From Methanosarcina barkeri MS (GTDB lineage: Archaea > Halobacteriota > Methanosarcinia > Methanosarcinales > Methanosarcinaceae): DNA of 64,000 bases. The stretch is taken from the NCBI RefSeq assembly GCF_000970025.1, contig NZ_CP009528.1, forward strand, positions 3,087,168-3,151,167, written 5' to 3'. This document shows, one piece after another, positions 8,020 through 63,685 of the stretch (its first letter is position 1; every line of letters begins with the position of its first letter). The position numbers were made by a program, and so were the translations under genes. The notes below the pieces were generated by a model. That model worked only from the letters and a program-made list of their open reading frames with translations, did not search any database and was not told the DNA's origin.

Positions 8020-8079
8020 TGCTCACAATTTTACTTATTGTGAGGGATACATACAAGGAAATTCTTGTATATAAAGCTT
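8020..8079 (-). promoter_or_regulatory. rRNA promoter P3 (distal) with palindrome
   Basis: TATA box at plus 8068-8077 (tatataaagc). The palindrome cacaa, 9 bases, ttgtg lies at 8024-8042. Third copy of the module, 167 bp beyond P2. Confidence 0.7.
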
Positions 8080-8304: not shown

Positions 8305-8493
8305 CATACGTCTTTGGTTAAGTGAAGAATCGTGATAAATTGCACCAATTTCCTCACATTTACCAAATAGGTCAATAAGTTATAAGCTGGAATACGGTAT
8401 CGATTTCATGTAAATGGACCAAAATTTAAGGCCGGCTTCTAATGCAAAATCAATAGCTTTCAGGCAAGAAAATTCCTTAACCGATGACCAATG
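8305..8493. mobile_element. 189-bp miniature inverted-repeat element, deletion relative of the cbiZ insertion
   Basis: Left end CATACGTCTTTGGTTAAG; right end on the other strand CATTGGTCATCGGTTAAG, identical to that of 1740-2237. Ten bases aaaatatatt flank it on both sides (8295-8304 and 8494-8503). About 65 bp of left end joins directly to about 120 bp of right end, lacking the STAS-like cargo. It lies upstream of the distal rRNA promoter. Confidence 0.9.
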
Positions 8494-9027: not shown

Positions 9028-9795
9028 TTGATAGATATAGATCCCAGTGGTATCCTGGTTCGTTACAATGTAAAAATGGAAAAAGAAATGACACCGGAAG
9101 AGGCTGCAGAAGAACTTTACCCAAAGGATTCAATAATTTATCCGATTGCAAAGGCCATCTTTGAAGGCGAAGAGGACGACGTTGTTGAAGGGTTGGAAAA
9201 GGCTATTAGCTCTGGAAAGGACCCAATCTCTCTTATCGATGACGCTCTGATGGTTGGAATGGGAGTGGTCACCAAACTTTATGACGAAGGAATAATTTTC
9301 CTGCCAAACGTTATGATGTCTGCTGATGCCATGCTGGAGGGCATTGAATACGTTAAGCAAAAAGCAGGAAGAGCACCTGTGGTTAAAGGTAAAGTCGTTT
9401 GCCACGTTGCAGAAGGCGACGTCCACGATATAGGAAAGAACATCGTAGCTGCATTGCTCAGAGCTAACGGATATGATGTAGTGGATCTTGGAAGAGATGT
9501 CCCTGTAGATGAGGTAATAGCGGCTGTCGAGAAAGAAAATCCTCTCATGCTTACAGGTACTGCCCTGATGACCACAACCATGTACGCATTTAAAGAAGTT
9601 AATGACAAGCTTCTGGAGAAAGGCTACAAGATTCCGTTCGCCTGTGGCGGCGGTGCTGTGAACCAGGACTTCGTATCCCAGTATGAACTAGGAGTATATG
9701 GCGAAGAAGCAGCCGATGCTCCTAAGATAGCAGATTTCATCAGGGAACACGGAGGCAACATTGTGAAACTGAGGGAGAAATTCCATAAACACTGA
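9028..9795 (+). CDS. mtaC: Methanol-specific corrinoid protein MtaC
   Basis: MtaC carries the methyl group from methanol on its cobalt: MtaB methylates it and MtaA demethylates it to form methyl-coenzyme M in the cytoplasm. The N-terminal helical cap (about residues 10-90, MTPEEAAEELYPKD) is followed by the B12-binding Rossmann domain. This has the base-off/His-on motif EGDVHDIGKNI, whose His133 (codon at 9424) ligates cobalt, then LTGTALMTTTMYAF and ACGGGAVNQDF. I choose the TTG at 9028 over the ATG at 9013, because the ATG overlaps a perfect GGAGGT (9015-9020) that sits 7 nt before the TTG. The TTG start gives 255 residues, with the ligand His placed as expected relative to the roughly 258-residue family members. 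mtaB follows after 12 nt. Confidence 0.95.
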   Translation: MIDIDPSGILVRYNVKMEKEMTPEEAAEELYPKDSIIYPIAKAIFEGEEDDVVEGLEKAISSGKDPISLIDDALMVGMGVVTKLYDEGIIFLPNVMMSADAMLEGIEYVKQKAGRAPVVKGKVVCHVAEGDVHDIGKNIVAALLRANGYDVVDLGRDVPVDEVIAAVEKENPLMLTGTALMTTTMYAFKEVNDKLLEKGYKIPFACGGGAVNQDFVSQYELGVYGEEAADAPKIADFIREHGGNIVKLREKFHKH

Positions 9796-9807
9796 GGAGA
9801 TGGAGTA

Positions 9808-11193: not shown

Positions 11194-11196
11194 TCA

Positions 11197-11222
11197 AGGC
11201 AATTCTCTTTTTTCCTTTTTTA
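11197..11222 (+). terminator. T-rich terminator after mtaCB
   Basis: cttttttcctttttt begins about 10 nt after the mtaB stop, a typical archaeal oligo-T termination signal. Confidence 0.6.
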
Positions 11223-11660
11223 AATATAGAGTGTTCCGTTTTTAAAATCCCGAGTGTAGTTTTCTAATTTTCCGGATAAATTCATATAGAAATTTTTAGT
11301 ACTGACAGACTCATTTAGCACTGGATATTTTTCTGTTAAGCAGCAACAGTTGAGTGAAAACTATATAGTTATGATTGTAAAAATTAACACTTAATTTACT
11401 CAAGATCTACAATTACGTAGGACACGAAAAAACTGGTCAAAATAATTACAACGAGAATGTATAATCAGGAAATAGGCTGCTTGAGAGAAAGAAGCGAATA
11501 AGATCCCGTTCTCTCAAGATAAGATACGGATATTACAGACAGCATGTTAAAAAATTGAAAATGACAATAAAAAATATTAATAAAAATTAGTAAAAAATTA
11601 GTAAAAAAAACAATAGAGAAATTAGTGAGAAATTAGTTAAATTCTTTATTCTGTGGTTTT
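11223..11660. other. Intergenic between convergent mtaB and mtaA
   Basis: About 440 AT-rich bases with no recognised gene. Near 11570-11640 there is a loose repeat of aaattagtaaaaaa-like words that may serve as termination for mtaA on the minus strand. Confidence 0.45.
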
Positions 11661-12680
11661 TCAAGCGTAATATTCGTCTCTTGCCTCGACCATCGCTTTA
11701 ATGTGGGAAAGCGGAGTCATAGGTGCAATTCCGCAGCCAGGCGCCAGTACGTCTACACCTTCGGAAATAGCTTTTTTCGATTCTTCTTTTATCTTATCGA
11801 TCGGACCTGGGAGCAGAACAAAGGGGCTTGAGATATTTCCTACGAGCCTTGCCCTATCCCCAAGCACTTCCTTAGCCTTTTTAATACTGCCAACTTTTTC
11901 TTCAACGCTCAGACCTTCGAAACCGCAATCTGCCATATAGTCAAGGATCGGGGCCACACTTCCACAGATATGCAGAACCGTAACCGAATTTACGTTTGAG
12001 GAAAACTTATGCAGCCTTGACTGGAGTTCATTTTTAAAAGAATCCGGACTCATCAGGTCAGGAGATGCTACAGGATCGGCAACGGAGATGACATCTGCTC
12101 CTGCAACAACCATTGAATTTGCATATGCTATTGTAGCATCGGTTGCAAAATCCAGTACCTGATGTAATAGATCTGGCTTTTTAACAGACCATTTCATAAA
12201 GGACTTTACACTCGCCAGATCGGAAGCAAGAGTAACAGGTCCTTCCATTCCTCCTATAATAGGCACATCCGGTCCTACTCTTTCCCTTATAATTTTGATT
12301 GAATCAAGTACAGCTTGGATTCTGCCTATGTCAAGTAGGTTCTCAGGCATTTCCATACCCTCAAGGCTTTTAGGATACGGATGTGCAGTAACTGATGGCT
12401 GCCTATTTTTAGTTCCCATATTAACCTCACAACCCATAGCTTCGGCAAGCACAGTCAGGCAATACGGGACTCTTACAGCTTCAAGCCCGCTTAATTCATA
12501 GTTTGCAATCGCAAGCGTCGCCATTTTTTCAGGGTCAGAATGAGCCTCTGGCCAGGAAGACCCTACTTCATCCATTAGTTCAACGATTCCTGTCTGGGTT
12601 ACAGAACAGACCGGTACTTTATCTACTTCTTTACCTTCCAGCGCATTTAAAAGTCTCTCCTTAAGTGTCATCTCAGTCAT
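11661..12680 (-). CDS. mtaA: Methylcobamide:coenzyme M methyltransferase MtaA
   Basis: Zinc enzyme of the uroporphyrinogen decarboxylase superfamily that transfers the methyl group from methyl-MtaC to coenzyme M, giving methyl-CoM for methanogenesis. At 339 residues it equals the family length. Zinc ligands His237 and Cys239 (VLHICGS) and Cys316 (APGCGIAP) are present. VPVCSVTQTGIVELMD near the N-terminus and RVPYCLTVLAEAMGC are characteristic of MtaA. The start ATG has ggggag 5 nt upstream. It faces mtaCB tail to tail, so all three parts of the methanol system sit within 3.7 kb but on separate transcripts. Confidence 0.95.
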   Translation of the reverse strand: MTEMTLKERLLNALEGKEVDKVPVCSVTQTGIVELMDEVGSSWPEAHSDPEKMATLAIANYELSGLEAVRVPYCLTVLAEAMGCEVNMGTKNRQPSVTAHPYPKSLEGMEMPENLLDIGRIQAVLDSIKIIRERVGPDVPIIGGMEGPVTLASDLASVKSFMKWSVKKPDLLHQVLDFATDATIAYANSMVVAGADVISVADPVASPDLMSPDSFKNELQSRLHKFSSNVNSVTVLHICGSVAPILDYMADCGFEGLSVEEKVGSIKKAKEVLGDRARLVGNISSPFVLLPGPIDKIKEESKKAISEGVDVLAPGCGIAPMTPLSHIKAMVEARDEYYA

Positions 12681-47544: not shown

Positions 47545-49049
47545 TTAAAGGAAACGGATTCCTTTCGGCATTTCACCTACTCTCTTTCTAAACTCCTCAG
47601 GCCAATTTGCAGGGTCAAGCCCTTTCTGCGCAAGGAAGACCGCAGTCCATCTTTCAAGCCCGACTCCGGAACAGCCAGACCAAATCTTCTCCAGACTGAA
47701 GTTTTACATTGAAGCCTTTGGGATACTTGTCTCCGTTGATACTCACATTCTGGAACTCGAGCCACTCTCCATCCGGCCCACGGTAAGGCAGGCAGGCCTC
47801 GTAATCGGTGGTCCCGACAGTGTTTTCTTCGGTAAGTCCGAGCAGCCCTTCCTGTGCCATGAACCAGAAAGTAACTCTTGCTTTTCTCCACCGATGTCCA
47901 GGATGTCGTTGAAGATATGCATATAACGATCATGCAGTTCTTCTGCGCACTTTGTTACCTCTTCTTTTGTCCCGATCCAGACAATTTCGACCCTGTGGAA
48001 TTCATCGACCCTTTCGATACCGTGAATTCCGCCACTCTCATATCTGTGAGAGGTTCCAGACCTGTCAAAGACCTTTACAGGAATTTCCTCATTTGGAAGG
48101 GTTTCCCTTGCTACGTACATCCAGAAAGGCGGGCATTGGGCATAGCACATGCCTCCGATTGGCTCTGCGATTTTTTCCTTGATCAGTTTTGTGGGCGCTT
48201 CATGAGTAACCTTGTAGTAATCGGCAACCTCTTCCCAGTAATCGGGATCCCTTGTCTGCGGAGGACACACATAATATATCTCAGAGTAGACACCCTTTGC
48301 ATGCCCGGATTTCATCCAGACTTCCCAGGTGACCAGTTTCGGGAAAATCATTTCCCTGTATCCGAGAGGTTCTAGAAGTTCTTCAAGGACGATTTTTTTG
48401 AAAGTCCGAAAGATCTTTGTGGACTGTGGCCCGTGGATCCACTGTCCGCGGCTTGACCCACGTTTGAGCCAGCCTTCTTTCATCATAGCCTGGGTCGGGT
48501 CTTCCTTGAAAGGATGCTCCATTGGCTCTCTCTGCCAGAGCAGATTCCAGTGCTCAGCCTTTGCTCCATACTGGGCAGCCTCGATCTTTTCTTCAAGAAG
48601 GGTGAGAATCCTGTCCGGAACCCGGTTCTTCATCTCAGCTTCTCCGACCTCAAGTTAGAGCTGAATCCCGCCTTCAATGTTTTCCATACTTTTTATATAA
48701 GGCACTTTGAGCATCCTGAGCTCGTGGTCAGCCGGCACTCTAATTGTGAGAGTTCAACCTCGATTCCGCGAATTCCTATCTTGTATTTCTTGCCGAGTGC
48801 CTCAGCAAGCTGTTTTCTCAGACGGAAAATTGCATCGTGCACCCTGACATACCTGCCGGACTGGAGCACAAGCTTGATCCTGTCCTCCCCGAGCTTCCAT
48901 TCCGTAACCTTTGCTCCCTATCCTTCAGGCACCCCTCGGGTGAGAAGGGTATTGTTTGCTTCTTCAAAAAGCGCAGCTATAGCATCCTTTGCAGTAGCGG
49001 GATCTGCGCTTGTTTTAAAATAAGCTTTGGGATTGAACTGTAATTTCAA
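47545..49049 (-). pseudogene. serS: Methanogen-type (class 2) seryl-tRNA synthetase, inactivated
   Basis: The intact enzyme charges tRNA-Ser. The frame starts at TTG 49049 ([20 protein letters not shown]) and is recognisable to [10 protein letters not shown] before TAA 47545-47547, the full family length of about 500 codons. It carries five lesions: TAG at 48918-48920; a frameshift near 48741-48755; TAA at 48655-48657; a frameshift near 47890 (after DILDI); and a frameshift near 47683 (after LQSGE). The longest intact stretch (48633-47893) includes the zinc-binding core with [32 protein letters not shown] and [12 protein letters not shown]. Two stops and three frame changes cannot be sequencing noise alone. 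A bacterial-type SerRS elsewhere would have to serve the cell; Methanosarcina barkeri is known to hold both types. Confidence 0.9.
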
Positions 49050-49849: not shown

Positions 49850-50140
49850 ATGGATGTTAACCAGATCCGGCTCCTTATCTTAGAAAGAAAGGACGAAATA
49901 AAAGAAAAGTTCAAAGCTGAAGTCCTGGGCGTTTTCGGCTCATACGCACGTGGCGAAGAAAAAAAAGAAAGTGATATTGACGTCCTTGTGAGGTTTGGAG
50001 AAGGAGCTACCCTCTTACACCTTGTGGGACTTGGATATTATCTTGAGGACTTATTTGGAGTTCCAGTTGATGTTGTTTCAGAAAGGGCTCTCCACCCGAT
50101 GATGAAAGATGACGTGTTAAAAGAGCTGGTACCGGTATGA
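49850..50140 (+). CDS. mntA: MntA-type nucleotidyltransferase antitoxin
   Basis: 96 residues, a minimal nucleotidyltransferase. GVFGSYARGEEKKESDIDVL has the GS-x10-DxD signature, and a third acid lies in PVDVVSERAL. MntA proteins AMPylate a tyrosine of the HepT toxin and thereby silence it (type VII toxin-antitoxin). The stop overlaps the start of the next gene by 4 nt (ATGA), giving strict coupling. A TATA-like element stands about 100 nt upstream. It opens the defence-rich stretch to the right. Confidence 0.93.
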   Translation: MDVNQIRLLILERKDEIKEKFKAEVLGVFGSYARGEEKKESDIDVLVRFGEGATLLHLVGLGYYLEDLFGVPVDVVSERALHPMMKDDVLKELVPV

Positions 50141-50481
50141 GATCCCCTCTTCTCTATCTTTCCGAGATAATGTCCGCCGCTGTAGCTATACAAGATTTCA
50201 CTGAGGGAATGGACAGAGAAACTTTTCTGAATGATGAGAAAACAAAAAGTGCAGTTGTCCGCCAGTTAGAAATAATAGGTGAAGCTGCAAAAGCTATTCC
50301 TGCAGATATAAAGGCTTTAGCTCCTGATATAGATTGGAGAAATATATCAGGTATGAGAGATCGAATAATACACGCTTATTTTAATGTTGATTATAACCTT
50401 GTCTGGGATACCATAGTAAGTGATATTCCAGTGCTTGAGAGCAGAATTGAAATGCTAGTTAACGAGTTAAAAAATAGCTGA
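50137..50481 (+). CDS. hepT: HepT-type ribonuclease toxin (DUF86)
   Basis: 114 residues, all helical. MRDRIIHAYFNVDYNLVWDT holds the R-x4-H-x-Y active site, whose Tyr is the AMPylation target in characterised pairs. RQLEIIGEAAKAIP is the other conserved helix. The toxin cuts RNA (tRNA in characterised cases) when not modified by MntA. The 4-nt overlap with mntA makes the pair one operon. Both genes look intact. Confidence 0.93.
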   Translation: MRSPLLYLSEIMSAAVAIQDFTEGMDRETFLNDEKTKSAVVRQLEIIGEAAKAIPADIKALAPDIDWRNISGMRDRIIHAYFNVDYNLVWDTIVSDIPVLESRIEMLVNELKNS

Positions 50482-51619: not shown

Positions 51620-51975
51620 AAAGTGTTTATTTTGCCTGCGGGGTATAATAGTATTATTACCAAACATTTGAAAAAATATTTAGAGTTGAGTTTAGTACTG
51701 TACGTGATCCGTAAGAAAATAAAAAAGGTATTAAAGATTGTCTCCTGTCGAATAGTATATACGCTTACTGTAAAAGTTATAGCAGGTCACAATACTTTTT
51801 GGATAGGGTCTAAGTTGGGATTAAGTCTAGAATGCTCCGTTTAAGAAAATGTTAGAACTCTACTTTTGTTTTATATAATCGGCACTTTTTTAAATCATTT
51901 TAGCGCTTAACTTTGAAACACATATAATTGTCTTCACTTTACTTACTGACGTTTGAAATGCGGAGAATTAGAAAA
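51620..51975. other. Intergenic between the MBL-fold and hsdM genes
   Basis: Should hold the promoter of the hsdMMS operon; no clear TATA box stood out, and no gene is recognised. Confidence 0.4.
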
Positions 51976-53460
51976 ATGAACAAAATGACCCTTTCAGAAT
52001 TAGAGCAGTCACTCTGGGGTGCCGCCAATATATTGCGAGGCCCTGTCGATGCTTCTGATTTTAAATCATATATATTTCCCGTACTTTTTTTCAAAAGAAT
52101 CTCTGATGTTTATGATGAAGAATATAAAGAAGCTCTTGAAGAATCAGAAGGTGACGAAGAATACGCTGGATTAAGCGAATTTCACGACTTCAACATCCCT
52201 GAAAAAGCTCACTGGAAAGATATCCTGGAAACAACCCAGAATGTTGGTCAAGCTCTTCAATACGCCTTCAGAGAAATCGAAAAATCAAATCCTGATCAGC
52301 TTTACGGCATATTTGGAGATGTGAACTGGACAAACAAAGACAGATTATCCGATGAGCTCTTGATTAACCTTATCCAACACTTTAACTCTCTCGTACTTTC
52401 AAAATCCAATGTAGAACCTGACATGCTTGGCCAAGCTTATGAATACCTTATTAAAAAATTTGCAGACCTTACGAACAGAAAAGCAGGCGAGTTCTATACA
52501 CCAAGGCCGATAGTCCATTTAATGGGCAGTATTCTGAAACCCCAGGAGGGAGAAACAATTTACGATCCTGCATGCGGTTCAGGCGGTATGCTTCTCGAGT
52601 CCTATCATTATGTTAAAAGTAATGGAGGAGATGCAAGAACACTAAAACTGTACGGCCAGGAAAAAAACCTGACAACCTCTTCAATTTCAAGAATCAATTT
52701 ATTTATCCATGCAGTACAGAGCTTCCAGATAATTCGAGGCGATACATTAAGAGAGCCTGCTTTTCTTGAGGGTGATAGGCTTGCTCAATTTGATATCGTA
52801 ATTGCAAATCCTCCATTTTCACTGAAAAAGTGGGGGTATGAAAACTGGTCGCAAGATCCATACGGCAGAAATATTGTAGGCACTCCACCCAAAAGTAACG
52901 GAGACTATGCCTGGGTCCAGCACATGATTGCTTCAATGGATCCTGAAACCGGAAGAATGGCAATTGTGCTGCCTCATGGGGCTCTCTTCAGGCAGGGAGC
53001 CGAAGGAAAAATCAGAAAAGCACTGATTGAAATGGACCTGCTGGAGGCTGTTATCGGGCTTGGTCCAAACCTGTTTTACGGAACCGGAATTAGTGCCTGT
53101 ATTCTCGTTTTCCGCTCAAAGAAAACCAATGAAAGAAAGAACAGGGTACTTTTCATCGATGCATCTGAACAGTACCAGAAAGGCAGAAGCCAGAACATTT
53201 TCCTGCCAGAGAATGCGGAAACCGTACTTAAGTGGTATGAGAATTATGGAGATATTGAAAATATATCTCAGGTAGTTGAGCTTTCAGAAATTCAGAAAAA
53301 CGAATTCAACCTTAATATTCCACTCTATGTCAAAAAAATCCATGAAGTAGAAAAGATTGACCTGAAAGTCACCCTTGAACAGCTAAAAAAGGATTACAAA
53401 GCTTTTCTGGAGTCCGAAGAAAAAATGAAGCGGTTACTTAAAGAAGTGAATGTTCTATGA
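51976..53460 (+). CDS. hsdM: Type I restriction-modification DNA methyltransferase subunit HsdM, paralogue 1
   Basis: N6-adenine methyltransferase subunit that works with HsdS. I start at ATG 51976 (MNKMTLSELEQSLWGAANIL), because ggag lies 10 nt upstream; 494 residues. HsdM N-terminal domain (SYIFPVLFFKRISDVYDEEY), then AGEFYTPRPIVHLMG (motif X), IYDPACGSGGMLLES (motif I, SAM), YGQEKNLTTSSISRINLFIH and IVIANPPFSLKKW (catalytic NPPF, motif IV). The C-terminal helices (VEKIDLKVTLEQLKKDYKAF) should meet HsdS. Its stop overlaps the start of a second HsdM gene by 4 nt (ATGA), so both are made from one message. Confidence 0.95.
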   Translation: MNKMTLSELEQSLWGAANILRGPVDASDFKSYIFPVLFFKRISDVYDEEYKEALEESEGDEEYAGLSEFHDFNIPEKAHWKDILETTQNVGQALQYAFREIEKSNPDQLYGIFGDVNWTNKDRLSDELLINLIQHFNSLVLSKSNVEPDMLGQAYEYLIKKFADLTNRKAGEFYTPRPIVHLMGSILKPQEGETIYDPACGSGGMLLESYHYVKSNGGDARTLKLYGQEKNLTTSSISRINLFIHAVQSFQIIRGDTLREPAFLEGDRLAQFDIVIANPPFSLKKWGYENWSQDPYGRNIVGTPPKSNGDYAWVQHMIASMDPETGRMAIVLPHGALFRQGAEGKIRKALIEMDLLEAVIGLGPNLFYGTGISACILVFRSKKTNERKNRVLFIDASEQYQKGRSQNIFLPENAETVLKWYENYGDIENISQVVELSEIQKNEFNLNIPLYVKKIHEVEKIDLKVTLEQLKKDYKAFLESEEKMKRLLKEVNVL

Positions 53461-54959
53461 ACTCAGATAATTCTCACGTAAGCCAGCAGGAACTTGAGCA
53501 GTACCTGTGGGGTGCAGCTACTCTTCTCAGGGGAGGCGTTGACCCTGGAGAATACAAAAATATCATTTTTCCCCTGATGTTTTTCAAACGAATTTCCGAT
53601 GTATACGAGGAAGAATTCGAAGAAGCTCTCAGGGAATCTGACGGAGACCTTGAATACGCCCAGTTTGCAGAAAATCACCGTTTCATAGTTCCAGACGGCT
53701 CACACTGGAAAGATGTAAGGGAAATCACCACTGATGTAGGAAAAGCGATCCGAGATGCAATGCGTGAAATCGAAAAAGCCAACCCTGACAAACTTGAGGG
53801 CATCTTCGGGGACGGAAACTGGACAAATAAAGACCGTTTGAGCGATAAAACCCTCATAGATCTGCTAGAACACTTTTCAAGCCTGAGTCTCACTATAAAA
53901 AACGTTCCTCAGGACCAGTTTGGGAATGCCTATGAGTATCTTATTAAAAAATTCGCGGATGATAGTGGCCACACCGCAGCCGAATTTTATACCAACAGAA
54001 CAGTTGTCCGTCTGATGGCTTTAATTATGGACCCTAAATCAGGAGAATCTATTTACGACCCGACCTGCGGCTCTGGCGGAATGCTTCTGAACTCCCTCCT
54101 TCTGGTGAAAGAAAGAGGTGAAGAATACCGCAATATCAAACTCTACGGCCAGGAAATTAACCTTATAACTTCAGCTATTGCTCGCATGAATATGTTCATC
54201 CACGATGTCGGCGATTTCCAGATCATAAGAGGTGACACTCTTGAAGACCCAGCCTTCATCAAAAACGATAGGGTTCAGCAATTCGACATTGTAATTGCAA
54301 ATCCTCCTTATTCAATCAAAAAATGGAACCATAGCGGCTGGACAAAAGACCCCTGGGGCAGAAATATATACGGAACTCCTCCTCAGAGCTGTGCCGATTA
54401 CGCTTTTTTCCAGCATATTATATGTTCAATGAAAGAAGATACTGGCAGATGTGCAATTCTCTGGCCTCATGGAGTTCTATTCAGGGATTCTGAACAGAGT
54501 ATGAGGGCAAAATTGATTGAGGACGATTATGTGGATTGCGTGATAGGCCTGGGACCAAATTTATTCTACAATTCTCCAATGGAAGCCTGTATTGTCATTT
54601 GCAGAAAAAGCAAACCAGCCGAAAGAAAAGGAAAAATCATGTTTATAAACGGTTTTGAAGAAGTTATACAAGAAAAGCAACAAGCATTTTTGTCAGACGA
54701 AAACATCCAGACCCTCTTTGACCTGTACATAAACTATGAGAATGTCTCCAGAAAATCTTACGTTGCCACGATAAAAGAAGTGAAAGAAAACGACTACAAT
54801 CTCAACGTACCTCTCTATGTCGAGAAGTACGATCTTGGAGAAGTAAAAGAACCGTTAGAAGTACTGATTCAGGAATGGACAGAAAGCAGCCAGAGAATAA
54901 AAGAAGCAAATGAAGAGATATTTTCAATCTTATCAGAGGTAGGATTAAATGACCAGTAA
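53457..54959 (+). CDS. hsdM: Type I restriction-modification DNA methyltransferase subunit HsdM, paralogue 2
   Basis: 500 residues, collinear over the full length with paralogue 1, with about half the residues shared by eye. Motif I IYDPTCGSGGMLLN and motif IV IVIANPPYSIKKW are intact. Motif X reads AAEFYTNRTVVRLM, with Asn where paralogue 1 and most HsdM proteins have Pro. It overlaps paralogue 1 by 4 nt and hsdS by 11 nt, so M1-M2-S is one tightly coupled operon. A usual type I methyltransferase is M2S with identical M subunits; here a mixed M1M2S enzyme is possible, or one of the two may be preferred. Both reading frames are undamaged. Confidence 0.95.
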   Translation: MNSDNSHVSQQELEQYLWGAATLLRGGVDPGEYKNIIFPLMFFKRISDVYEEEFEEALRESDGDLEYAQFAENHRFIVPDGSHWKDVREITTDVGKAIRDAMREIEKANPDKLEGIFGDGNWTNKDRLSDKTLIDLLEHFSSLSLTIKNVPQDQFGNAYEYLIKKFADDSGHTAAEFYTNRTVVRLMALIMDPKSGESIYDPTCGSGGMLLNSLLLVKERGEEYRNIKLYGQEINLITSAIARMNMFIHDVGDFQIIRGDTLEDPAFIKNDRVQQFDIVIANPPYSIKKWNHSGWTKDPWGRNIYGTPPQSCADYAFFQHIICSMKEDTGRCAILWPHGVLFRDSEQSMRAKLIEDDYVDCVIGLGPNLFYNSPMEACIVICRKSKPAERKGKIMFINGFEEVIQEKQQAFLSDENIQTLFDLYINYENVSRKSYVATIKEVKENDYNLNVPLYVEKYDLGEVKEPLEVLIQEWTESSQRIKEANEEIFSILSEVGLNDQ

Positions 54960-56190
54960 CCTGAAAAACGTTCCTCCAAACTGGCAAAAAGTAAGATTTG
55001 ATGAAATTGCCACAATTGTTACAGATAGGATAGAAAAACCTATCGAATCAGGACTCAAAGACTACATTGGCCTGGAGCATCTGGACACTGACTGTATAAG
55101 AATCAAGAGATTTGGTTCAACGGAAGATGTTGACGCAACAAAATTCCTCTGTAAAAAAGGAGACATCATTTTCGGAAAACGCCGTGCATATTTGAGAAAA
55201 GTTGCAGTAAGCGACCGAGACGCTGTAGTTTCAGCTCACTCAATGGTTCTTCGCCCAACGGGAGATAAAATCTACCCTGACTTTTTACCTTGTTTCATGC
55301 AATCAAGTATCTTCTGGAAGACTGCACACTCAATTTCCGAAGGATCAATGTCCCCAACAATAAAATGGAAAAACCTTGCCGCACAGGAATTCTGGCTTCC
55401 AAGCATCGAAGAACAAAAGAAGATCTCTGGACTTCTCTGGTCCATCGAAGATAACATCCAGAAAACCGAAAAACTCATAGAAACAACTGAAACACTCAAA
55501 CAGGGGCTTCTTAATGAACTGCTGACAAAAGGAATTGGGCATACCCGATTTAAAGATAGTGAACTGGGGAGGATTCCGGAGGAATGGGAAGTTGTGAGAT
55601 TAGGGAATATATCAAATGTGAGGAGAGGAGCATCACCACGTCCAATTAACGATTCTAGATATTTTGATTCAGAAGGGACTGGTTGGATCAGGATTGCAGA
55701 TGTTACCTCCACATATAAATATATCAATAAAACATCTCAATATCTCTCGGAGTTAGGAGTTTCTAAAAGTGTACCAGTGCATAGAGGGGATCTGATAATG
55801 AGCATATGTGCTACAATAGGTAAGCCTGTAATTGTTGATATGGATGCCTGTATACATGATGGATTCGTTCTATTTTCTGATATAAAGAAAGGAATTATCA
55901 ATGACTTTTTGTTTTATGTATTACTAAAGAGTGAAAAAGAATTTGAGAATAAAAGACAAGTTGGAACTCAAGGAAATTTAAATACTGATATAGTTAAAAA
56001 AACAAAAATTGCGTTGCCTAGCTCTTTAGAAGAACAAAAAAAGATAGTTAGTATTTTTGAGAATATAGACAGTATAATAGAAACATATCATTTAAGTTTA
56101 AGTAATCTTGGTCACCTCAAAAAGAAAATATTAAATGAAATGCTCTCAGGGAATCTAATGCTTAAGTGTATTCCAGTAATCATTTCATGA
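54949..56190 (+). CDS. hsdS: Type I restriction-modification specificity subunit HsdS
   Basis: 413 residues with two target-recognition domains (about 1-150 and 205-350), each followed by a helical spacer. The central conserved region is LWSIEDNIQKTEKLIETTET and LKQGLLNELLTKGIGHTRFK. The C-terminal one is EEQKKIVSIFENIDSIIETY, ending KKILNEMLSGNL. Between the halves, GRIPEEWEVVRLGNISNVRR is the standard start of the second domain. It sets the bipartite DNA site; the site cannot be predicted from sequence. The start overlaps hsdM2 by 11 nt. The stop lies 4 nt from the stop of the opposite-strand nuclease gene. Confidence 0.95.
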   Translation: MTSNLKNVPPNWQKVRFDEIATIVTDRIEKPIESGLKDYIGLEHLDTDCIRIKRFGSTEDVDATKFLCKKGDIIFGKRRAYLRKVAVSDRDAVVSAHSMVLRPTGDKIYPDFLPCFMQSSIFWKTAHSISEGSMSPTIKWKNLAAQEFWLPSIEEQKKISGLLWSIEDNIQKTEKLIETTETLKQGLLNELLTKGIGHTRFKDSELGRIPEEWEVVRLGNISNVRRGASPRPINDSRYFDSEGTGWIRIADVTSTYKYINKTSQYLSELGVSKSVPVHRGDLIMSICATIGKPVIVDMDACIHDGFVLFSDIKKGIINDFLFYVLLKSEKEFENKRQVGTQGNLNTDIVKKTKIALPSSLEEQKKIVSIFENIDSIIETYHLSLSNLGHLKKKILNEMLSGNLMLKCIPVIIS

Positions 56191-56194
56191 AAAT

Positions 56195-57184
56195 TCAGGG
56201 GGAGTGCCCTATAATTTCCTCCACCATTTCAACAACATTTTTAGGAAAATCCAGATTATTGATCGCATCAGAAACAATATGAAGGTTCTCAAAATTAGTT
56301 ATACCTTTAGACTCATGGAACTTATTAGTCACCATAATTCCATTATCTATTTTTAGTAATTGGGTTACACCATAGAGTTTCATGACATCATACATCTTCG
56401 CTTCGGTGTTTTTGCATTCTATGATACAAACAGGTTTATCGTTCTTTGTGATAAGGACATCAAGTTCAGTAACTTCCGAGATTTCAGATTTCGAAGAGTT
56501 GCTTTCGATTAAGGCTTCAATTGTTTCGGGTTGTTCTCTCGCTCCTTTGTTGTATACCTGTACACTGTGAAAGATCTCAATATCTTCATTTGATTTGAAA
56601 TGTTCTTTTAAGGTATGGTAAACCCAGACTTCAAGAAACAAGCCGGTATATTCTGGTTTTATCCAGATTTCATAAAGGGCTTCTGAGATTTTGTAGAAAC
56701 AAAACTTTTCGGGAGTGCAAAGGGGAAAGTCTTCAGAATTAGATTCTTCATCTGCGAAAGTGACTTTATCGAATTCCTTTCCTTTGTGTTGTACCGAGTC
56801 AATGTAAATGTCAGGAGTTATTATCCCTATTTTTTCGGCTTTTTCACAAACATGAGCAAGAGATCTGTTTATTGTATTGGAGAATAATTGATCTGCGATA
56901 TTGGACAGGTTGGAAATATAGGTATAGTATTTTGAGGTTGATTTTCCGGGCATTGCTTTGGGAAGTAGGCGGGATTCCCGGATGAAGTCAAAAAAGTACT
57001 GGTAAGTGTTGTTTTCTTTGCTTATTTCTTGGGAATCGTCTTTTGAAGATAGGCCTGAAAAAGTTTGTTTTATAAAAAAGTTACGTAGAGTCCTGTCGTC
57101 TTCAAAAGCAAAGATTAGTTTCTTAATTTCTTCAGATTCCACGTAATCAAGAGGTTTGATAACTAAAGGAAAACCGTTATGCAT
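56195..57184 (-). CDS. PD-(D/E)XK nuclease-like protein, Card1/DUF1887-type C-terminus
   Basis: 329 residues from ATG 57184, chosen because it overlaps the upstream stop by 8 nt (ATGCATAA); an upstream start at 57223 also exists. The last third holds TELDVLITKNDKPVCIIECK, that is an acid, then D, a beta turn and ExK, the PD-(D/E)XK nuclease core, followed by a helix and a Leu-rich strand. FLEVWVYHTLKEHF before it resembles the helix that precedes the core in Card1/DUF1887 nucleases. The N-terminal 200 residues are not recognised and could be a sensor. It is co-transcribed with the YwgA-like gene and embedded between hsdS and hsdR, suggesting a defence role. The nuclease call rests on motifs alone. 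Confidence 0.6.
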   Translation of the reverse strand: MHNGFPLVIKPLDYVESEEIKKLIFAFEDDRTLRNFFIKQTFSGLSSKDDSQEISKENNTYQYFFDFIRESRLLPKAMPGKSTSKYYTYISNLSNIADQLFSNTINRSLAHVCEKAEKIGIITPDIYIDSVQHKGKEFDKVTFADEESNSEDFPLCTPEKFCFYKISEALYEIWIKPEYTGLFLEVWVYHTLKEHFKSNEDIEIFHSVQVYNKGAREQPETIEALIESNSSKSEISEVTELDVLITKNDKPVCIIECKNTEAKMYDVMKLYGVTQLLKIDNGIMVTNKFHESKGITNFENLHIVSDAINNLDFPKNVVEMVEEIIGHSP

Positions 57185-57599
57185 TAAGTCTTTCTGGGAG
57201 GTATTTCCTGTAGACGTATTCAATTATTGCACTCCTGGGAAGTTCAGAAAGTTTTTTCAGGGTCTCTATTTTATCTCCAGGGATATATTCGGATGGAAGT
57301 TTAATTTCGGATTGGGCAAAATCCGAAAGCTTGTAGACATATGTGACAAAATCTCCGCAGTGCTCTTTTTCTTCTTTGATGTAGCCGGTTGCAATCAAAT
57401 CTTCAATGGTTTCAGTAAGATCCCAGGAATAAGGCCCGTAGTGATATTTATCGAATTTGAAAAATTCAGGGAGCCCAAGCTCCATTTGTCCTAAAAATAC
57501 TATTTTTTGTAATTTGGTTCTGCCTTCTATTTTACCCAGTCCTGAGAGAAGTTCAAGAATGAAAGCTTTTCTGGAACTGGATTTGTCCTCTTCTGGCAT
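57177..57599 (-). CDS. YwgA-like protein of unknown function
   Basis: 140 residues from ATG 57599 (MPEEDKSSSRKAFILELLSG); a longer frame starts at 57623. RTKLQKIVFLGQMELGLPEF, YHYGPYSWDLTETIEDLIAT and GYIKEE follow the pattern K-LQK-iYl, YGPYS, L, L-GyI of Bacillus YwgA and the related SocA/DUF4065-like proteins, which adopt a winged-helix-like fold and include antitoxins and proteolytic adaptors. The stop overlaps the start of the nuclease gene by 8 nt, so the two proteins are made together. A partner or antitoxin role for the nuclease is inferred from this coupling only. Confidence 0.6.
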   Translation of the reverse strand: MPEEDKSSSRKAFILELLSGLGKIEGRTKLQKIVFLGQMELGLPEFFKFDKYHYGPYSWDLTETIEDLIATGYIKEEKEHCGDFVTYVYKLSDFAQSEIKLPSEYIPGDKIETLKKLSELPRSAIIEYVYRKYLPERLNA

Positions 57600-57716
57600 A
57601 CAATCCCCTTGTAACAACCGCATTTTTTGTATAATTTTTAATTAAATCTGTAGCGTTGTAGTGCTTAATACTGAAGCACTATTACCTATATGCACTATTA
57701 GTATTTGTCGTTTATT

Positions 57717-58598
57717 TCAAGATTTTGATTTCAAGAGGGATTTAAGTTCTTCAACACGCTCTATGTCTGCAATCATATCCGAAATGTCATTTAAATCCAG
57801 ATTATTTTTATCCATTATTTTGATCAACTTTTTTGGAGAATACTGATTTCTAAAGTTACTTGGAACCAGACTTCTGGTTGCTTCATAATACCAGAGAGCA
57901 ATCCCTGCAAAATAAATATCTGCTTTTATCAATTCACAAATCGAGGAAAAGTGCGTATTAACAACGAAAAAGTCATTAGTTGTGTGTACTTTACATTCTT
58001 CCAGAAACTTAATTGAATGATTGTTATTTGGAATCAGGTCGAGGCAAATTCCACAATTATGAAGCCAGATCAAAGCTTTGGTATAAGCTATTCCATAAAT
58101 CTTATTTTTGTGCCATGCTGATTTTAGTCCTATGATCTTGTAAGCCTCATTTGAAGAAGCAACTTCTACAAGCAGGTTTTTCTGTTGATCTAAATCTTCA
58201 GATATACTTTGAATGTATTCGGCATTTAATTTTATAGAGTTAAAAACAGAATCTGCAGACTTTAGGATAATTTCAATATCTGTGATTCCAGCATCCAGTT
58301 TATTGATAGCGGCAATCTTCCCTCTTTTGTTTGGCTCTTCTACAGCCTCTTTTTCAGCCAACAAATGAGTCTTTGCTGTCATGATCCAGCCGTAATCCAG
58401 CTTTTCTCGGTCAAGGAGCCTATATTTATTGAGAATATTGAATTCATAATTTACTTCTGCATCAGTCAGGTTTCCACCAAGAAGCGCAGCTATACAGAAG
58501 TTGTACCAGAGAGAATCATCGTCTGTTATCATTCCAGGTTTGTCCCAGGTCTCTTCAACTCTATTAACAAGCTTTTCAAAATCAGATGGAATTGTCAT
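57717..58598 (-). CDS. Unrecognised protein within the type I locus
   Basis: 293 residues from ATG 58598 (MTIPSDFEKLVNRVEETWDK); an upstream start at 58613 is possible. It is soluble and mostly helical. Two stretches, SLWYNFCIAALLGGNLTDAE near the N-terminus and AWHKNKIYGIAYTKALIWLH plus NNNHSIKFLEE in the middle, vaguely recall the layout of helix-hairpin-helix DNA glycosylases, but the catalytic Lys/Asp pair is not evident, so this is only a hint. It lies between the YwgA-nuclease pair and hsdR on the minus strand, 117 nt from the former. Base composition is like its neighbours. No function can be named. Confidence 0.7.
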   Translation of the reverse strand: MTIPSDFEKLVNRVEETWDKPGMITDDDSLWYNFCIAALLGGNLTDAEVNYEFNILNKYRLLDREKLDYGWIMTAKTHLLAEKEAVEEPNKRGKIAAINKLDAGITDIEIILKSADSVFNSIKLNAEYIQSISEDLDQQKNLLVEVASSNEAYKIIGLKSAWHKNKIYGIAYTKALIWLHNCGICLDLIPNNNHSIKFLEECKVHTTNDFFVVNTHFSSICELIKADIYFAGIALWYYEATRSLVPSNFRNQYSPKKLIKIMDKNNLDLNDISDMIADIERVEELKSLLKSKS

Positions 58599-58802
58599 AT
58601 TTACAGATATCACTCAACAAGTATTAATTTTTTTGTAAGTTTGCAGGGGGTAAATATCATTCACTACAAATGGAGTTTAGGTCTTCAAACATATAATTAA
58701 TACAAAAATATTCTATTATATTTAGTAAAAGTTAATTAGAGGTAATCAAAAATATGTTACAATAGTTTTACTCAAGATTTAATTAAAAGGAATGGGTTTC
58801 TG

Positions 58803-61700
58803 GTGTTCAACGAGGAAAATTCAGTTGAAAATTTTATTCGGGATCTATTGAAGAATATTGGATGGAGATTTGTCCCAAGAAGTGAACTCAACAGGGCAGA
58901 ATCAGATATTCTTGTAGAAGAAAATCTTGTAAATGCACTGGTCAGATTGAACCCTCTCGTTGCAGAAAACCCAAACCGTGCAGATGAAATCATCTATAAA
59001 TTAAGAGCTATTCTCATTTCTGTCAGAGGCTTAGGGCTTGTAAAAGCCAATGAAGAATTTTCCCGGTGGCTCAAAAATGAAAAAACCATGCCTTTTGGAG
59101 AGAGAGGGGAACACGTTTCTATAAAATTGATTGATTACGAGAAGCCGGAAAACAATGAATTCATAGTTACCACTCAGTACAGTTTCACACCGAAAAGAAA
59201 CCTGAACAGAAGACCAGACCTTGTACTACTGGTAAACGGGATTCCTCTGGTCATTGGGGAAGCAAAAAGTCCGGTGAGACCTTCAATATCCTGGCTTGAT
59301 GGAGCTATTCAGCTTGATGAGTATCAGAAATCCGTTCCGGAATTATTTGTGCCAAGCGTTTTCTGTTTTGCAAGCGAAGGGAAAAATTATCGTGTAGGGT
59401 CGGTCAAGCTTCCGATCGAAAAGTGGCAGCCCTGGAGAAAAACTACGGATACTACTTTTGAGCAACTGGAAGAAGTAAAACATGCTGTAAACCTGATGTT
59501 AAGTCCGGAAACTGTGCTTGATATTACGAAGAATTTTACAATATTCAGCACGGACCAGAACAGCCAGAAAATCAAAGTTCTCTGCCGGTACCAGCAGTAT
59601 GAAGCAACAAAGCAGATAATAAAAAGGGTAATTGAAGGTCGGATCAAAAAAGGGCTTATCTGGCATTTTCAGGGATCTGGAAAGTCTCTACTGATGGTCT
59701 ATGCAGCTCTGCAGCTTCGGCAGAATCCAGAACTTAAAAGTCCTACTGTTATCATTGTTGTGGATCGAATTGACCTGAACTCCCAGATTACCGGTACATT
59801 CAATGCTGCAAATATTCCAAATACAGTAACAACGGAATCAAGAGAAGAGTTGAAACGCTTACTTGAGCAGGATACACGAAAGATAATCATTACTACAATT
59901 CATAAATTCGCAGAGGCAGACGGCATTTTAAATGAAAGGGATAATATCATTGTGCTGGTTGACGAAGCCCATAGGACTCAGGAAGGCGATCTGGGAAAGA
60001 AGATGAGAGAAGCCCTGCCAAATGCGTTTCTTTTCGGGCTTACCGGCACTCCGATAAACACAAGAGATCGAAATACTTTCTGGGCTTTTGGGGCTGAAGA
60101 AGATAAAAACGGGTACATGAATAAATACGGTTTTGAGCAGTCACTGAAAGATAAAGCAACCCTTCCAATCTATTTTGTACCAAGACCCGTAGAACTCCAT
60201 ATCAACCAGAAAGCTATTGATGAAGCCTTCCATGAGATGATTGACCAGCTGGAAGAAGATGATAAAATCCAGCTATCAAAACGTGCCGCAAAATTCGGTG
60301 TACTTGTAAAGTCTCCAGATCGGATAAGAAAGGTCTGTAAAAACATTGTGGATCACTATAAAGAACATATAGAACCAAGTAATTTTAAAGGTCAAATCGT
60401 CACTTTCGATAGAGAGGCATGTCATCTCTACAAACAGGAAATTAATAAATACCTGAGTCCAGAGGAGTCTGCTGTTGTTATGACTCTAGGACAAAAAGAC
60501 CCGGAAGACTGGAAAGATAAATACTCACTAACTGATGATGAACTCGCAAAACTGCTGGATCGTTTCAGAGACCCGTCTGACCCTCTCAAACTCCTGATTG
60601 TAACCTCTAAACTCTTAACAGGTTTCGATGCTCCAATTAATGAGGTTATGTATCTTGACAAACCCATGAAAGACCATACTCTTCTTCAGGCAATTTGCCG
60701 GGTAAACCGTCCGTATAAAAACAAAGATCATGGGCTTGTAGTTGATTATTTAGGGATCTTTGATAATGTTGCAAATGCTCTCAACTTTGATATTAAAGAG
60801 ATACAGAACGTAATATCTAATCTTAACAAATTAAAAGACGAATTCCCGCTTGCCCTTGAAACATGCTTAGCTTATTTTGAAGGAATTGACCGGAGTCTTG
60901 AAGGATACGAGGGGTTACTTCCCGCCCAGGAATGTCTGCTCACAAATGAACGAAGGGATCAATTTGCAGCAGATTATTCATATCTTGCGAGACACTGGGA
61001 AGCTCTCTCTCCAGACTCATTTTTAAATCCGTATGAAACCGATTACAAATGGCTCACTCAGGTATATCAATCTATAAGACCAACAGACAGCAATGGGAAA
61101 CTTGTATGGTATGTACTTGGTCCTAAAACTCTTGATCTTATACATGAGAACACCACCGTTCAAATAATTCGAGATGATCTTGAAACGCTTATAATGGATG
61201 CAGATATCCTTGAGAAAATCTCAGAAAAAGAAGCATCCAAGAGAGCTAAAAATATTGAAATAAAAATTGAGTGGAAGCTACACAAGAATGCAAACGATCC
61301 ACGGTTTGAAGAGCTGGGTAAAAAACTTGAAGAGCTAAAAAACAAACATTATAAAAATACAATCAATAGCATTGAATTCTTAAAAGGACTTCTTGAGATT
61401 GCAAAGGAAACTGTCATACTTGAAAGAGAAACTCCTGCTGAACCTGTTGACAATACAAAGGAAGCTCTTACTCAATTATTTATGGAATGTAAAATCGAGC
61501 AAACCCCAGTAATAGTAGAAAAAATAGTAAACGACATCGATAGCGTTGTAAAATATACCAGATTTGACGGCTGGCAGTGGACTGATACGGGTGAAAAAGA
61601 GATAAAGAAAGCTCTGCGCAAAACATTGTTGAAATACAAGCTTCACAAAGATCAGGAGCTTTTCGATAAAGCTTATGAATATATAAGGGAACATTATTAA
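58803..61700 (+). CDS. hsdR: Type I restriction endonuclease subunit HsdR
   Basis: Translocase and nuclease subunit of the type I enzyme, 965 residues. The start is GTG 58803 with aaagga about 12 nt upstream. The N-terminal nuclease has NLNRRPDLVLLVNGIPLVIG then EAKSPVR (D-x12-ExK). The SF2 helicase motor has WHFQGSGKSLLMVYAA (Walker A), VLVDEAHRTQEGD (DEAH-type Walker B), FGLTGTPINTRD and AICRVNRPYKNKD. The C-terminal helical region (after about 700) binds the methyltransferase. It is 2.6 kb from hsdS with three opposite-strand genes between, so it has its own transcript. Intact. Confidence 0.95.
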   Translation: MFNEENSVENFIRDLLKNIGWRFVPRSELNRAESDILVEENLVNALVRLNPLVAENPNRADEIIYKLRAILISVRGLGLVKANEEFSRWLKNEKTMPFGERGEHVSIKLIDYEKPENNEFIVTTQYSFTPKRNLNRRPDLVLLVNGIPLVIGEAKSPVRPSISWLDGAIQLDEYQKSVPELFVPSVFCFASEGKNYRVGSVKLPIEKWQPWRKTTDTTFEQLEEVKHAVNLMLSPETVLDITKNFTIFSTDQNSQKIKVLCRYQQYEATKQIIKRVIEGRIKKGLIWHFQGSGKSLLMVYAALQLRQNPELKSPTVIIVVDRIDLNSQITGTFNAANIPNTVTTESREELKRLLEQDTRKIIITTIHKFAEADGILNERDNIIVLVDEAHRTQEGDLGKKMREALPNAFLFGLTGTPINTRDRNTFWAFGAEEDKNGYMNKYGFEQSLKDKATLPIYFVPRPVELHINQKAIDEAFHEMIDQLEEDDKIQLSKRAAKFGVLVKSPDRIRKVCKNIVDHYKEHIEPSNFKGQIVTFDREACHLYKQEINKYLSPEESAVVMTLGQKDPEDWKDKYSLTDDELAKLLDRFRDPSDPLKLLIVTSKLLTGFDAPINEVMYLDKPMKDHTLLQAICRVNRPYKNKDHGLVVDYLGIFDNVANALNFDIKEIQNVISNLNKLKDEFPLALETCLAYFEGIDRSLEGYEGLLPAQECLLTNERRDQFAADYSYLARHWEALSPDSFLNPYETDYKWLTQVYQSIRPTDSNGKLVWYVLGPKTLDLIHENTTVQIIRDDLETLIMDADILEKISEKEASKRAKNIEIKIEWKLHKNANDPRFEELGKKLEELKNKHYKNTINSIEFLKGLLEIAKETVILERETPAEPVDNTKEALTQLFMECKIEQTPVIVEKIVNDIDSVVKYTRFDGWQWTDTGEKEIKKALRKTLLKYKLHKDQELFDKAYEYIREHY

Positions 61701-61891
61701 TTTTCTGTTCACTTATTCACTTTTGGTCAGTAGTTAATTCTTTAATAATTTATTATCTATCGAAGGAACAGATGTACTCATTCTTCACTGTTCCTTAATT
61801 TCCTATTTATTCGATTTAAACGTTTTAGGAAGGTTTTTAAATTTTTCCCATTAGTAGATAGACAGATCCTGAAATAACCGAAGGGTAAAAA

Positions 61892-63685
61892 ATGAGTGCG
61901 ATTACAACTTTTGACAGCACAAAGTCGTTCATGAAAGATATACTGAAAGACATCACAATCGGAAAAGTTCAACTTCCTGACTTTCAGCGTGGCTGGGTCT
62001 GGGACGATGAACGCATAAAAAGCTTGCTCGCGAGTGTTTCCCTTTCTTTTCCGATCGGAGCTGTAATGATGCTTCAAACTGGGAACGATGAGGTTCGTTT
62101 TAAGCCAAGACTCATCGAAGGTCTGATACTTGATCCACAACCAGAACCGAGTCAGCTGATTCTTGATGGACAGCAAAGATTAACTGCACTCTACCAGTCT
62201 ATTTTGAGAAAAAAAGCGGTTGATACTGAAGATATAAGGAAAAAACCGATTAAAAGGCACTATTACATCGATATTGAAAGATCCCTTAATCCATACGTGG
62301 ATAGAGAAGATTGTATCAGGAGCATCGCTGAAGATAGAATTGTCAGAAACTTCAGGGGGGAATCTATCGAGGATTACTCCACACCTGAAAATGAGTTTGA
62401 AGCAGGTCTATTTCCACTTAATCAGATTCTGGACAGCTCTAACTGGCGGATGGCGTATCAGGAGTACTGGTGGAACAGAGAATACGGAAAAAACAAGATA
62501 ATGATGTTTAGCGAATTTGAAAAGGAAGTAATAAGCCGCTTTGTGGAATATCAGATCCCCCTTATAATGATGAACAATAGTACACCAAAAGAAGCTGTAT
62601 GCCTCGTTTTTGAAAAGGTCAATACTGGCGGTGTAACGCTTACTGTATTTGAACTTCTTACAGCAACCTTTGCTGCGGATAATTTTAATCTTAGAGAAGA
62701 CTGGGAGAGAATCCGTAATAGTCATTTAAAGAAATTTAGTGTACTGCAAGGTATAGAAAATACAGACTTCCTTCAAGCCGTATGTCTTCTAGCCACTTTA
62801 AAAAAGAGGATAAAAAAACTTGAGGAAGGAGAAGCTGAAGAAAAAGCCCCTGCTGTCAGCTGTAAGCGTAAAGATATTCTCAAAATGAAACTGGAAGAAT
62901 ACACAGAAAATGCCGATAAAGTTGCCAAAGGTTTTGAAAAGGCTGCAAAACTTCTCAATATTCAAAATGTATTCACACCTAGAGATATTCCCTATAGAAC
63001 TCAGATAACTCCGCTAGCCGCAACCCTTGCAGTACTTGGAGACGAAGCCGATACAGACGGAGTTAGAAAGAAAATATTCCAGTGGTACTGGTGCGGTGTG
63101 CTGGGAGAATTATATGGAAGTGCCATAGAGACCCGTTTTGCAAAAGACTTACTTGAACTTCTCGATTGGATCAATGGAGGTCCAGAACCTTCAACTGTAA
63201 AGGAAGCAAGCTTTGACCCGGAACGCCTTAACACACTTCGAACCCGTAATAGTGCAGCATACAAAGGAATTTATGCGCTTCTCATGAGGGATGGAGGGAT
63301 AGACTTCAGAACCGGTGAGCCAATTGATATCCAGACATACTATGAGGACAATATCGATATTCATCATATCTTTCCTCAAGATTGGTGTAAAAACCATGGA
63401 ATTAGCCAAGATGAGTACAACAGCATTATCAACAAAACGCCCCTTTCTGCAAAAACCAACCGTATAATAGGTGGCAGTGCACCGAGTTTCTACGTAGAAA
63501 AGATTCAAAAAACTGCAGGAATCGATGAATTCAGGATGAATGAAATACTTTCAAGTCATGTAATAGAACCTTCACTTATCAGGAATGATGATTTCAATAA
63601 ATTCTTTGAAACTCGTAAAAAAGCAATTCTTAAAAGAATAGAAAAAGCAATGGGAAAGCCTGTTATTCATAGGGAAGAAGAATAA
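61892..63685 (+). CDS. DUF262/HNH endonuclease, GmrSD-like
   Basis: 597 residues. N-terminal DUF262 (ParB-like NTPase) domain: VQLPDFQRGWVWDDERIKSL, SFPIGAVMML and LILDGQQRLTALYQS (DGQQR is the family signature). C-terminal HNH/DUF1524-like nuclease: DIDIHHIFPQDWC (conserved His-His), NKTPLSAKTNRIIGG. Proteins of this build include the GmrSD enzymes that cut modified (glucosylated hydroxymethyl) cytosine DNA, and BrxU. It lies 191 nt after hsdR on the same strand. The pair could give complementary defence: type I against unmodified DNA, GmrSD-like against modified phage DNA. That division of labour is inferred. Confidence 0.9.
   Translation: MSAITTFDSTKSFMKDILKDITIGKVQLPDFQRGWVWDDERIKSLLASVSLSFPIGAVMMLQTGNDEVRFKPRLIEGLILDPQPEPSQLILDGQQRLTALYQSILRKKAVDTEDIRKKPIKRHYYIDIERSLNPYVDREDCIRSIAEDRIVRNFRGESIEDYSTPENEFEAGLFPLNQILDSSNWRMAYQEYWWNREYGKNKIMMFSEFEKEVISRFVEYQIPLIMMNNSTPKEAVCLVFEKVNTGGVTLTVFELLTATFAADNFNLREDWERIRNSHLKKFSVLQGIENTDFLQAVCLLATLKKRIKKLEEGEAEEKAPAVSCKRKDILKMKLEEYTENADKVAKGFEKAAKLLNIQNVFTPRDIPYRTQITPLAATLAVLGDEADTDGVRKKIFQWYWCGVLGELYGSAIETRFAKDLLELLDWINGGPEPSTVKEASFDPERLNTLRTRNSAAYKGIYALLMRDGGIDFRTGEPIDIQTYYEDNIDIHHIFPQDWCKNHGISQDEYNSIINKTPLSAKTNRIIGGSAPSFYVEKIQKTAGIDEFRMNEILSSHVIEPSLIRNDDFNKFFETRKKAILKRIEKAMGKPVIHREEE

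Follow-up and report, generated by a model that had tools for sequence, protein, structure and literature searches.

A putative M1M2S type I restriction locus of the PacII kind in Methanosarcina barkeri MS, with a separate gene cassette between hsdS and hsdR

Why does a type I restriction locus keep two different hsdM genes side by side, and do the genes lying between its hsdS and hsdR belong to the same system? Both questions are raised by a stretch of 64,000 nt from Methanosarcina barkeri MS (contig NZ_CP009528.1; the whole stretch is called the window below), whose genome comprises 4.57 Mb in 2 contigs. A preliminary description of the window had listed hsdM1, hsdM2 and hsdS with overlaps of 4 nt (hsdM1/hsdM2) and 11 nt (hsdM2/hsdS), three minus-strand genes, hsdR and a DUF262/HNH gene, and the coordinates of the open reading frames (ORFs) match this layout. 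With a probability of about 0.92, we read the locus as an M1M2S methyltransferase making N6-methyladenine (m6A) and N4-methylcytosine (m4C) together with HsdR, accompanied by a separate cassette as cargo and, linked behind hsdR, by a type IV-like nuclease. Gene content, homology, pocket motifs, contacts of the first target-recognition domain (TRD1), M1/M2 adjacency and HsdR motifs were observed directly. The restriction-modification (RM) genes are the following:

51976-53460, plus strand: hsdM1, 494 amino acids (aa) from an ATG start; M1-type (NPPF/AGEF), predicted m6A
53457-54959, plus strand: hsdM2, 500 aa; M2-type (NPPY/AAEF), predicted m4C
54949-56190, plus strand: hsdS, 413 aa; two target-recognition domains (TRD1, TRD2)
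58803-61700, plus strand: hsdR, 965 aa; restriction/translocation subunit; TIGR00348 E 5.7e-164

The first three genes form a tight plus-strand operon, and none of the reported genes of the locus contains an internal stop. A longer hsdM1 frame with a TTG start opens at 51928. By eye, a possible archaeal promoter (TATA-like tttatataat, 51870-51879) was noticed ∼100 nt upstream of hsdM1. Pfam searches returned N6_Mtase and HsdM_N in both HsdM proteins (N6_Mtase E 7.8e-102 and 2.8e-92), Methylase_S in HsdS, and HSDR_N and SWI2_SNF2 in HsdR. HsdR keeps the PD-ExK, GSGKS (Walker A) and DEAH motifs, and its TIGR00348 match is above the cut-off.

An m4C system of the PacII kind was reportedly first described by Morgan et al. 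in 2016. PacII itself is a solved non-canonical type I methyltransferase, described as an M1M2S heterotrimer (PDB 7VRU) in which each strand is modified by its own subunit, one to m6A by M1 (AGEF, NPPF) and the other to m4C by M2 (AAEF, NPPY) (PMC9613975). In a search of all solved structures, HsdM1 matched PacII M1 best (7vru_A, E 2.8e-169; second 7vru_B, 9.1e-155), and HsdM2 matched PacII M2 best (7vru_B, E 2.6e-190; second 7vru_A, 8.1e-136). All four class motifs are present, AGEF and NPPF in HsdM1 and AAEF and NPPY in HsdM2. The motifs were compared in 19 loci (the window, 8 further genomes of the order and 10 loci from other records). AGEF and NPPF occur in all 19 M1 proteins; NPPY is found in 19/19 M2 proteins and AAEF in 18/19, the exception being L115 with AQEF. 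NPPY was absent from the 21 outgroup HsdM proteins of our choice, which carry NPPF (12), NPPW (1) or no NPP motif that could be found (8). At the level of single residues, 10/10 checked positions of PacII M1 are identical in the window M1, and 17/22 checked positions of PacII M2 are identical in the window M2, including pocket residues F180, N285-Y288 and F373.

The specificity subunit points in the same direction for its first half. HsdS matched PacII S (7vru_C, E 5e-55) mainly over residues 6-292. TRD1 (residues ∼1-150) is PacII-like and TRD2 (residues ∼206-350) is divergent. Five of the six TRD1 contacts are identical to PacII S (R75, R76, Y78, K81 and H94), and Q79 is replaced by L. Because these contacts are largely kept, a CCC-like cytosine half-site is supported for TRD1 as a prediction, and this m4C half-site is testable. 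TRD2 is unlike that of PacII and would therefore probably read a different adenine half-site. In the relatives L048, L108 and L110, TRD1 is 95, 79 and 83% identical to that of the window and TRD2 only 27, 30 and 27%; judged by these identities, the putative adenine-side domain has been exchanged and the putative cytosine-side domain kept. In the remaining 14 compared loci TRD1 has diverged as well (22-47% identity).

If subunit assembly, base specificity and division of labour follow PacII, one HsdM1, one HsdM2 and one HsdS would assemble into an M1M2S methyltransferase. TRD2 would present the adenine half-site to HsdM1 for m6A on one strand, and TRD1 would present the cytosine half-site, probably CCC-like, to HsdM2 for m4C on the other. 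Two HsdR subunits would join this complex and cut DNA unmodified at the site. By its sequence, the locus fits this already described non-canonical type I kind and is a predicted archaeal member of it. Like PacII, it combines two different HsdM proteins, each matching its own counterpart, with one two-TRD HsdS and HsdR. Unlike PacII, it has an archaeal host, a different TRD2 and genes between hsdS and hsdR.

Several observations weigh against this assignment. Five of the 22 checked PacII M2 positions differ in the window M2 (R11H, K15Q, D19Q, D36E, R410K), and some of them are DNA-contact or interface residues in PacII. The arginine at the M2 R29 position is present in the window M2 and, unlike in PacII, also in the window M1. 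The account of PacII presents this residue as an M2 feature that is non-conserved in M1, yet as carried by ∼80% of classical HsdM proteins (PMC9613975), so it is a weak class marker. For HsdS, another S subunit (1yf2_A) gave a near-equal match (E 1.3e-54), mainly over the second half. PacII M2 was also described to methylate adenine in vitro (PMC9613975), and NPPY is thus no proof of m4C.

This last observation, together with the N6_Mtase and HsdM_N domains kept in both proteins, would suit redundancy of the two paralogues: M1-M1 or M2-M2 homodimers would each join the single HsdS in a classical M2S enzyme that makes m6A, for example under different expression. We consider this very improbable. 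The M1- and M2-specific pocket motifs are conserved across the examined pairs, and in the 19 loci an M2-type gene always has an M1 beside or near it. Moreover, PacII M2 alone was reported to be unable to bind S, while M1 alone gave a partial M1S complex (PMC9613975). It is hardly credible that HsdM2 is an inactive duplicate or one in decay. Nothing speaks for this except the general commonness of duplicated genes, and the protein is full length with intact catalytic motifs, is 93-94% identical to the L048 copy and is conserved across phyla. A redundant or decayed second HsdM was accordingly rejected as the leading explanation: both proteins are intact, each class has its own pocket motifs, and the two genes are conserved as a pair. 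The hetero M1M2S methyltransferase that the preliminary description had offered as one alternative is strongly supported as a prediction, because of the homology to the PacII complex and the class-specific pocket motifs.

A quick maximum-likelihood analysis of 61 HsdM proteins (20 M1, 20 M2 and 21 others) addressed the history of the pair. In the resulting tree, M1 and M2 each form a clade that includes its PacII counterpart (Shimodaira-Hasegawa-like approximate likelihood ratio test, SH-aLRT, 95 and 100, respectively), and both together are separate from the 21 other HsdM proteins. By eye the M1 and M2 subtrees mostly mirror one another, with L113 placed differently. Fine placements are uncertain, because PacII, L115 and several outgroup rows drew a long-branch warning from the tree program. 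The tree suggests a single M1/M2 split, after which both genes would have been inherited jointly across archaea and bacteria.

The tandem is also widespread. Among 149 genomes of the order (one genome per species, the window's own included), the best M2 match is at least 52% identical in 9, and a second hsdM adjoins it in 9/9. In canonical HsdM loci, some of which end at contig ends, a second complete hsdM inside 3 kb was seen in 0/40; L060 has a second hsdM ∼5.9 kb away, and in L089 one gene lies in two adjacent pieces. The hsdM tandem is no chance arrangement. One related pair is that of L048, a Methanosarcina record (M1 92% and M2 93-94% identical). Further M1-M2 arrangements were found in records labelled Bacteroidota, Bdellovibrionota, Pseudomonadota, Bacillota and Pacearchaeota, and M1-M2-S-R on two plasmids, of Exiguobacterium and Streptomyces; many of the record loci come from metagenome bins, several of those under these phylum labels included, and several loci are cut by contig ends. 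One Pacearchaeota contig, JAGVXH010000003.1, holds two complete M1-M2-S-R loci (L042 and L043), the fetched stretches starting ∼38 kb apart.

The search for hsdM-hsdM-hsdS operons elsewhere, proposed in the preliminary description, thus returned them from archaea, bacteria and plasmids. The two-HsdM arrangement noted there is real; it is less unusual than suggested, because it is already described and widely recurrent. The PacII report speaks of "many bacterial species" for this kind (PMC9613975). In the titles and abstract openings returned by a literature search, no archaeal m6A/m4C M1M2S member is named, and in the collection searched no work was found that combines N4-methylcytosine, type I restriction, archaea and Methanosarcina. 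Our comparison would place the m6A/m4C M1M2S kind in archaea, namely in the window's order and in Pacearchaeota genomes.

We now turn to the genes between hsdS and hsdR. This gap, or slot, was compared in 20 loci (the window, L040-L046, L048, L049, L108, L110-L115, L129, L130 and L140). L038, which lies inside L108, and L039, which is identical with L109, were each counted once; L042 and L043 share one contig. L109 and L047, in which hsdR is out of view, were omitted from the count. L044 shows only the start of hsdR, and L140 shows S and R and no M genes, its contig being taken as the continuation of the M1-M2 contig of genome G126. The slot is filled in 6/20 loci, empty in 13/20 and ambiguous in one (L114, where a 92-aa hsdR-like fragment separates hsdS from hsdR). 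The filled slots hold:

L048: OLD-like ATPase-TOPRIM protein
L049: DarT and DarG
L044: five ORFs, including TmtA-like, AAA and IetS-like S8-peptidase proteins
L140: GajA and GajB, that is, Gabija
L112 (genome G065), 7041-8792, minus strand: 583-aa protein with no Pfam or PADLOC match; candidate defence gene
Window: three-gene minus-strand cassette

In four of these slots the genes are recognised by PADLOC as defence genes (Gabija, DarTG, OLD-like and TmtA/IetS-like). The window cassette alone lies on the strand opposite to its operon; the five other cargoes do not. Genes were also seen between M1 and M2 (L044, L046, L047) and between M2 and S (L042, L043). The latter two each carry a 162-aa gene there; neither Pfam nor PADLOC gave a match for the L042 copy. 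The gap between hsdS and hsdR resembles a cargo slot for defence genes. In the RRDM island of enteropathogenic Escherichia coli (EPEC), DarTG2 is described as embedded between hsdS and hsdR under a shared repressor, and the site is called a potential recombination hotspot (PMC12255303). Since defence genes occupy the gap in some members, unassigned genes of the slot are reasonable candidates for new defence functions.

In the window, the slot holds these genes:

56195-57223, minus strand: PD-(D/E)XK nuclease-like gene; cargo; 342 aa from TTG, 329 aa from ATG at 57184
57177-57623, minus strand: "YwgA-like" gene, 148 aa; cargo; overlaps the nuclease-like gene
57717-58613, minus strand: gene of unknown family, 298 aa; cargo; all-helical prediction, low confidence

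With its probable start, the ATG at 57184, the nuclease-like gene overlaps the end of the YwgA-like gene by 8 nt. Searches with the three genes at E 1e-3 found no match in the other 19 slot loci, in L047 or in L109. Because they are missing from the other 19 loci and their relatives lie elsewhere without hsd genes nearby, the cassette is, on these comparisons, separate cargo and presumably non-integral to the restriction system. Ahead of the hsdR start, only 9-14 nt are conserved with L038 and L048, so that no insertion junction or duplicated target site can be named.

The nuclease-like protein resembles PADLOC PD_DExK (E 4.5e-11) and carries an LDVL..ECK motif; no plasmid matches were found for it. 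The YwgA-like protein, whose name stems from the preliminary description and was returned by none of our searches, resembles PADLOC PDC-M19A (1.8e-11) and DarG (1.2e-6), with an NCBIfam DarG score of 19 bits against a cut-off of 250. It has matches in 28/149 genomes of the order, the window's own included. In genome G065, too, a YwgA-like gene (52-53% identical) directly precedes the nuclease-like gene; four further close relatives of the YwgA-like protein (51-55%) stand beside other genes. The G065 pair is >1 Mb away from the M1M2S locus of the same genome, and no M, S or R match was found in its 18-kb stretch. For the 298-aa protein, Pfam, PADLOC, NCBIfam and PHROGs gave no family match, and its structure model is all-helical with low confidence (mean predicted local distance difference test score, pLDDT, 61.6). 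Its two clear relatives, in G145 and G120, have neighbours that include a YgjP-like gene and Lon protease, and 17 kb there contain no hsd match. For the YwgA-like and DUF262 proteins, all PHROGs matches were to families of unknown function; the nuclease-like protein had none. Sequence searches of solved structures gave nothing credible for the cassette and DUF262 proteins.

Because recognised defence genes occupy this slot in four related loci, the overlapping YwgA-like/PD-(D/E)XK pair is possibly an independent defence or toxin-antitoxin-like module and is put forward as a candidate. It shares with EPEC DarTG2 the position of a separate module in the hsdS-hsdR gap, as described for the latter (PMC12255303), and its YwgA-like protein weakly resembles part of DarG. 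Unlike DarTG2, the cassette lies on the opposite strand, and neither DarT nor a macro domain was found in its proteins by Pfam, PADLOC or NCBIfam. More speculatively, the pair might be an undescribed mobile anti-viral module, a nuclease of the type otherwise fused to CARF sensors, here without the sensor, being held in check by a partner that is similar to part of DarG; we regard this version as doubtful.

Four observations count against a defence role of the cassette: the Pfam match of the nuclease-like protein is under the cut-off; its structure model is unusable (mean pLDDT 33.4); its only relative among the 149 order and 392 phylum genomes is that of G065 (37%), so that the gene occurs in 2/392 phylum genomes, its own included; and the G065 pair stands among housekeeping genes, with a hisA-like gene and a 4-(hydroxymethyl)-2-furancarboxaldehyde-phosphate (4-HFC-P) synthase gene on one side and CDC48 on the other. 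This rarity and this neighbourhood would fit neutral cargo that was inserted by chance. Such a reading is tentative and, in our view, rather unlikely, given the recognised defence genes in the slot of four relatives, the direct adjacency of both genes in G065 too and the PADLOC resemblances of the cassette proteins.

A functional part in the restriction system, either as a controller or as a guard that acts upon inhibition of the RM enzyme, is improbable. The position between hsdS and hsdR would allow it, and there are precedents, namely prrC embedded in the type I locus EcoprrI, where PrrC is described in a guard role (PMC3874165), and the repressor shared by DarTG2 (PMC12255303). However, the strand of the cassette is opposite, unlike that of the five other slot cargoes, its genes are present in 0/19 other loci and their relatives have no hsd genes nearby, and the slot is empty in 13/20 loci. 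An obligate RM part was rejected as the leading explanation on the grounds of these 0/19 loci and the location of the gene relatives elsewhere. Of the two roles proposed in the preliminary description, additional defence thus stays plausible through the defence genes in four slots, whereas a control module found no support: the suggested search for the YwgA-like/nuclease pair between hsdS and hsdR gave 0/19 other loci, and G065 provides the pair with no M, S or R match in its 18-kb stretch.

Behind hsdR lies one more gene of the locus:

61892-63685, plus strand: DUF262/HNH gene, 597 aa; GmrSD N-domain and IHHIFP HNH-like motif

The protein matches PF03235 (GmrSD_N, E 5.5e-28, above the cut-off) and has a DGQQR motif. 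At its C-terminus the IHHIFP motif is seen, and no Pfam HNH or DUF1524 match was obtained. By these features it is probably a modification-dependent, type IV-like nuclease that would be aimed at modified viral DNA. GmrSD-like genes are described as embedded within type I loci, as in TgvAB (PMC11411939). The window shares with TgvAB and other GmrSD-family type IV systems a DUF262 domain with an HNH-like C-terminal motif by a type I locus; it differs in having a single DUF262 protein behind hsdR, where TgvAB is presented as a two-protein pair within the hsd genes (PMC11411939).

The DUF262 gene recurs behind hsdR, 99-204 nt past its stop, in L048 (84% identity over the first 156 residues, up to the contig end), in L140 (pieces of 85% and 73% around an N run) and in L138 (89%, intact gene); in L108 the contig ends behind hsdR. 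L138 (G073:C1:1692000-1711500) contains, at 2236-12651, PglZ, BrxL and helicase genes, followed by the last 225 HsdR residues and the DUF262 gene. As only these residues of HsdR remain, L138 is likely what is left of an RM locus of this kind next to a BREX-type island. Other relatives were found between M1 and M2 in L047 (46%) and in genome G023 (L139, 47-48%), the latter with 0 hsd matches in 15 kb; a partial match occurs in G016. The DUF262 gene is a repeated neighbour in close relatives and no obligate part of the system, because relatives also occur elsewhere, including places without hsd genes nearby. In L047, from Leucothrix, the gene between hsdM1 and hsdM2 (7671-10001) encodes a DUF262-AlbA/Schlafen fusion and overlaps both neighbours.

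Two further features were seen upstream of the restriction locus. The ORF at 47743-48633 (minus strand) has a translation with a putative resemblance to a methanogen-type seryl-tRNA synthetase. At 49850-50481 an NTP_transf_2 nucleotidyltransferase gene and a HepT-like gene overlap and likely form a toxin-antitoxin module.

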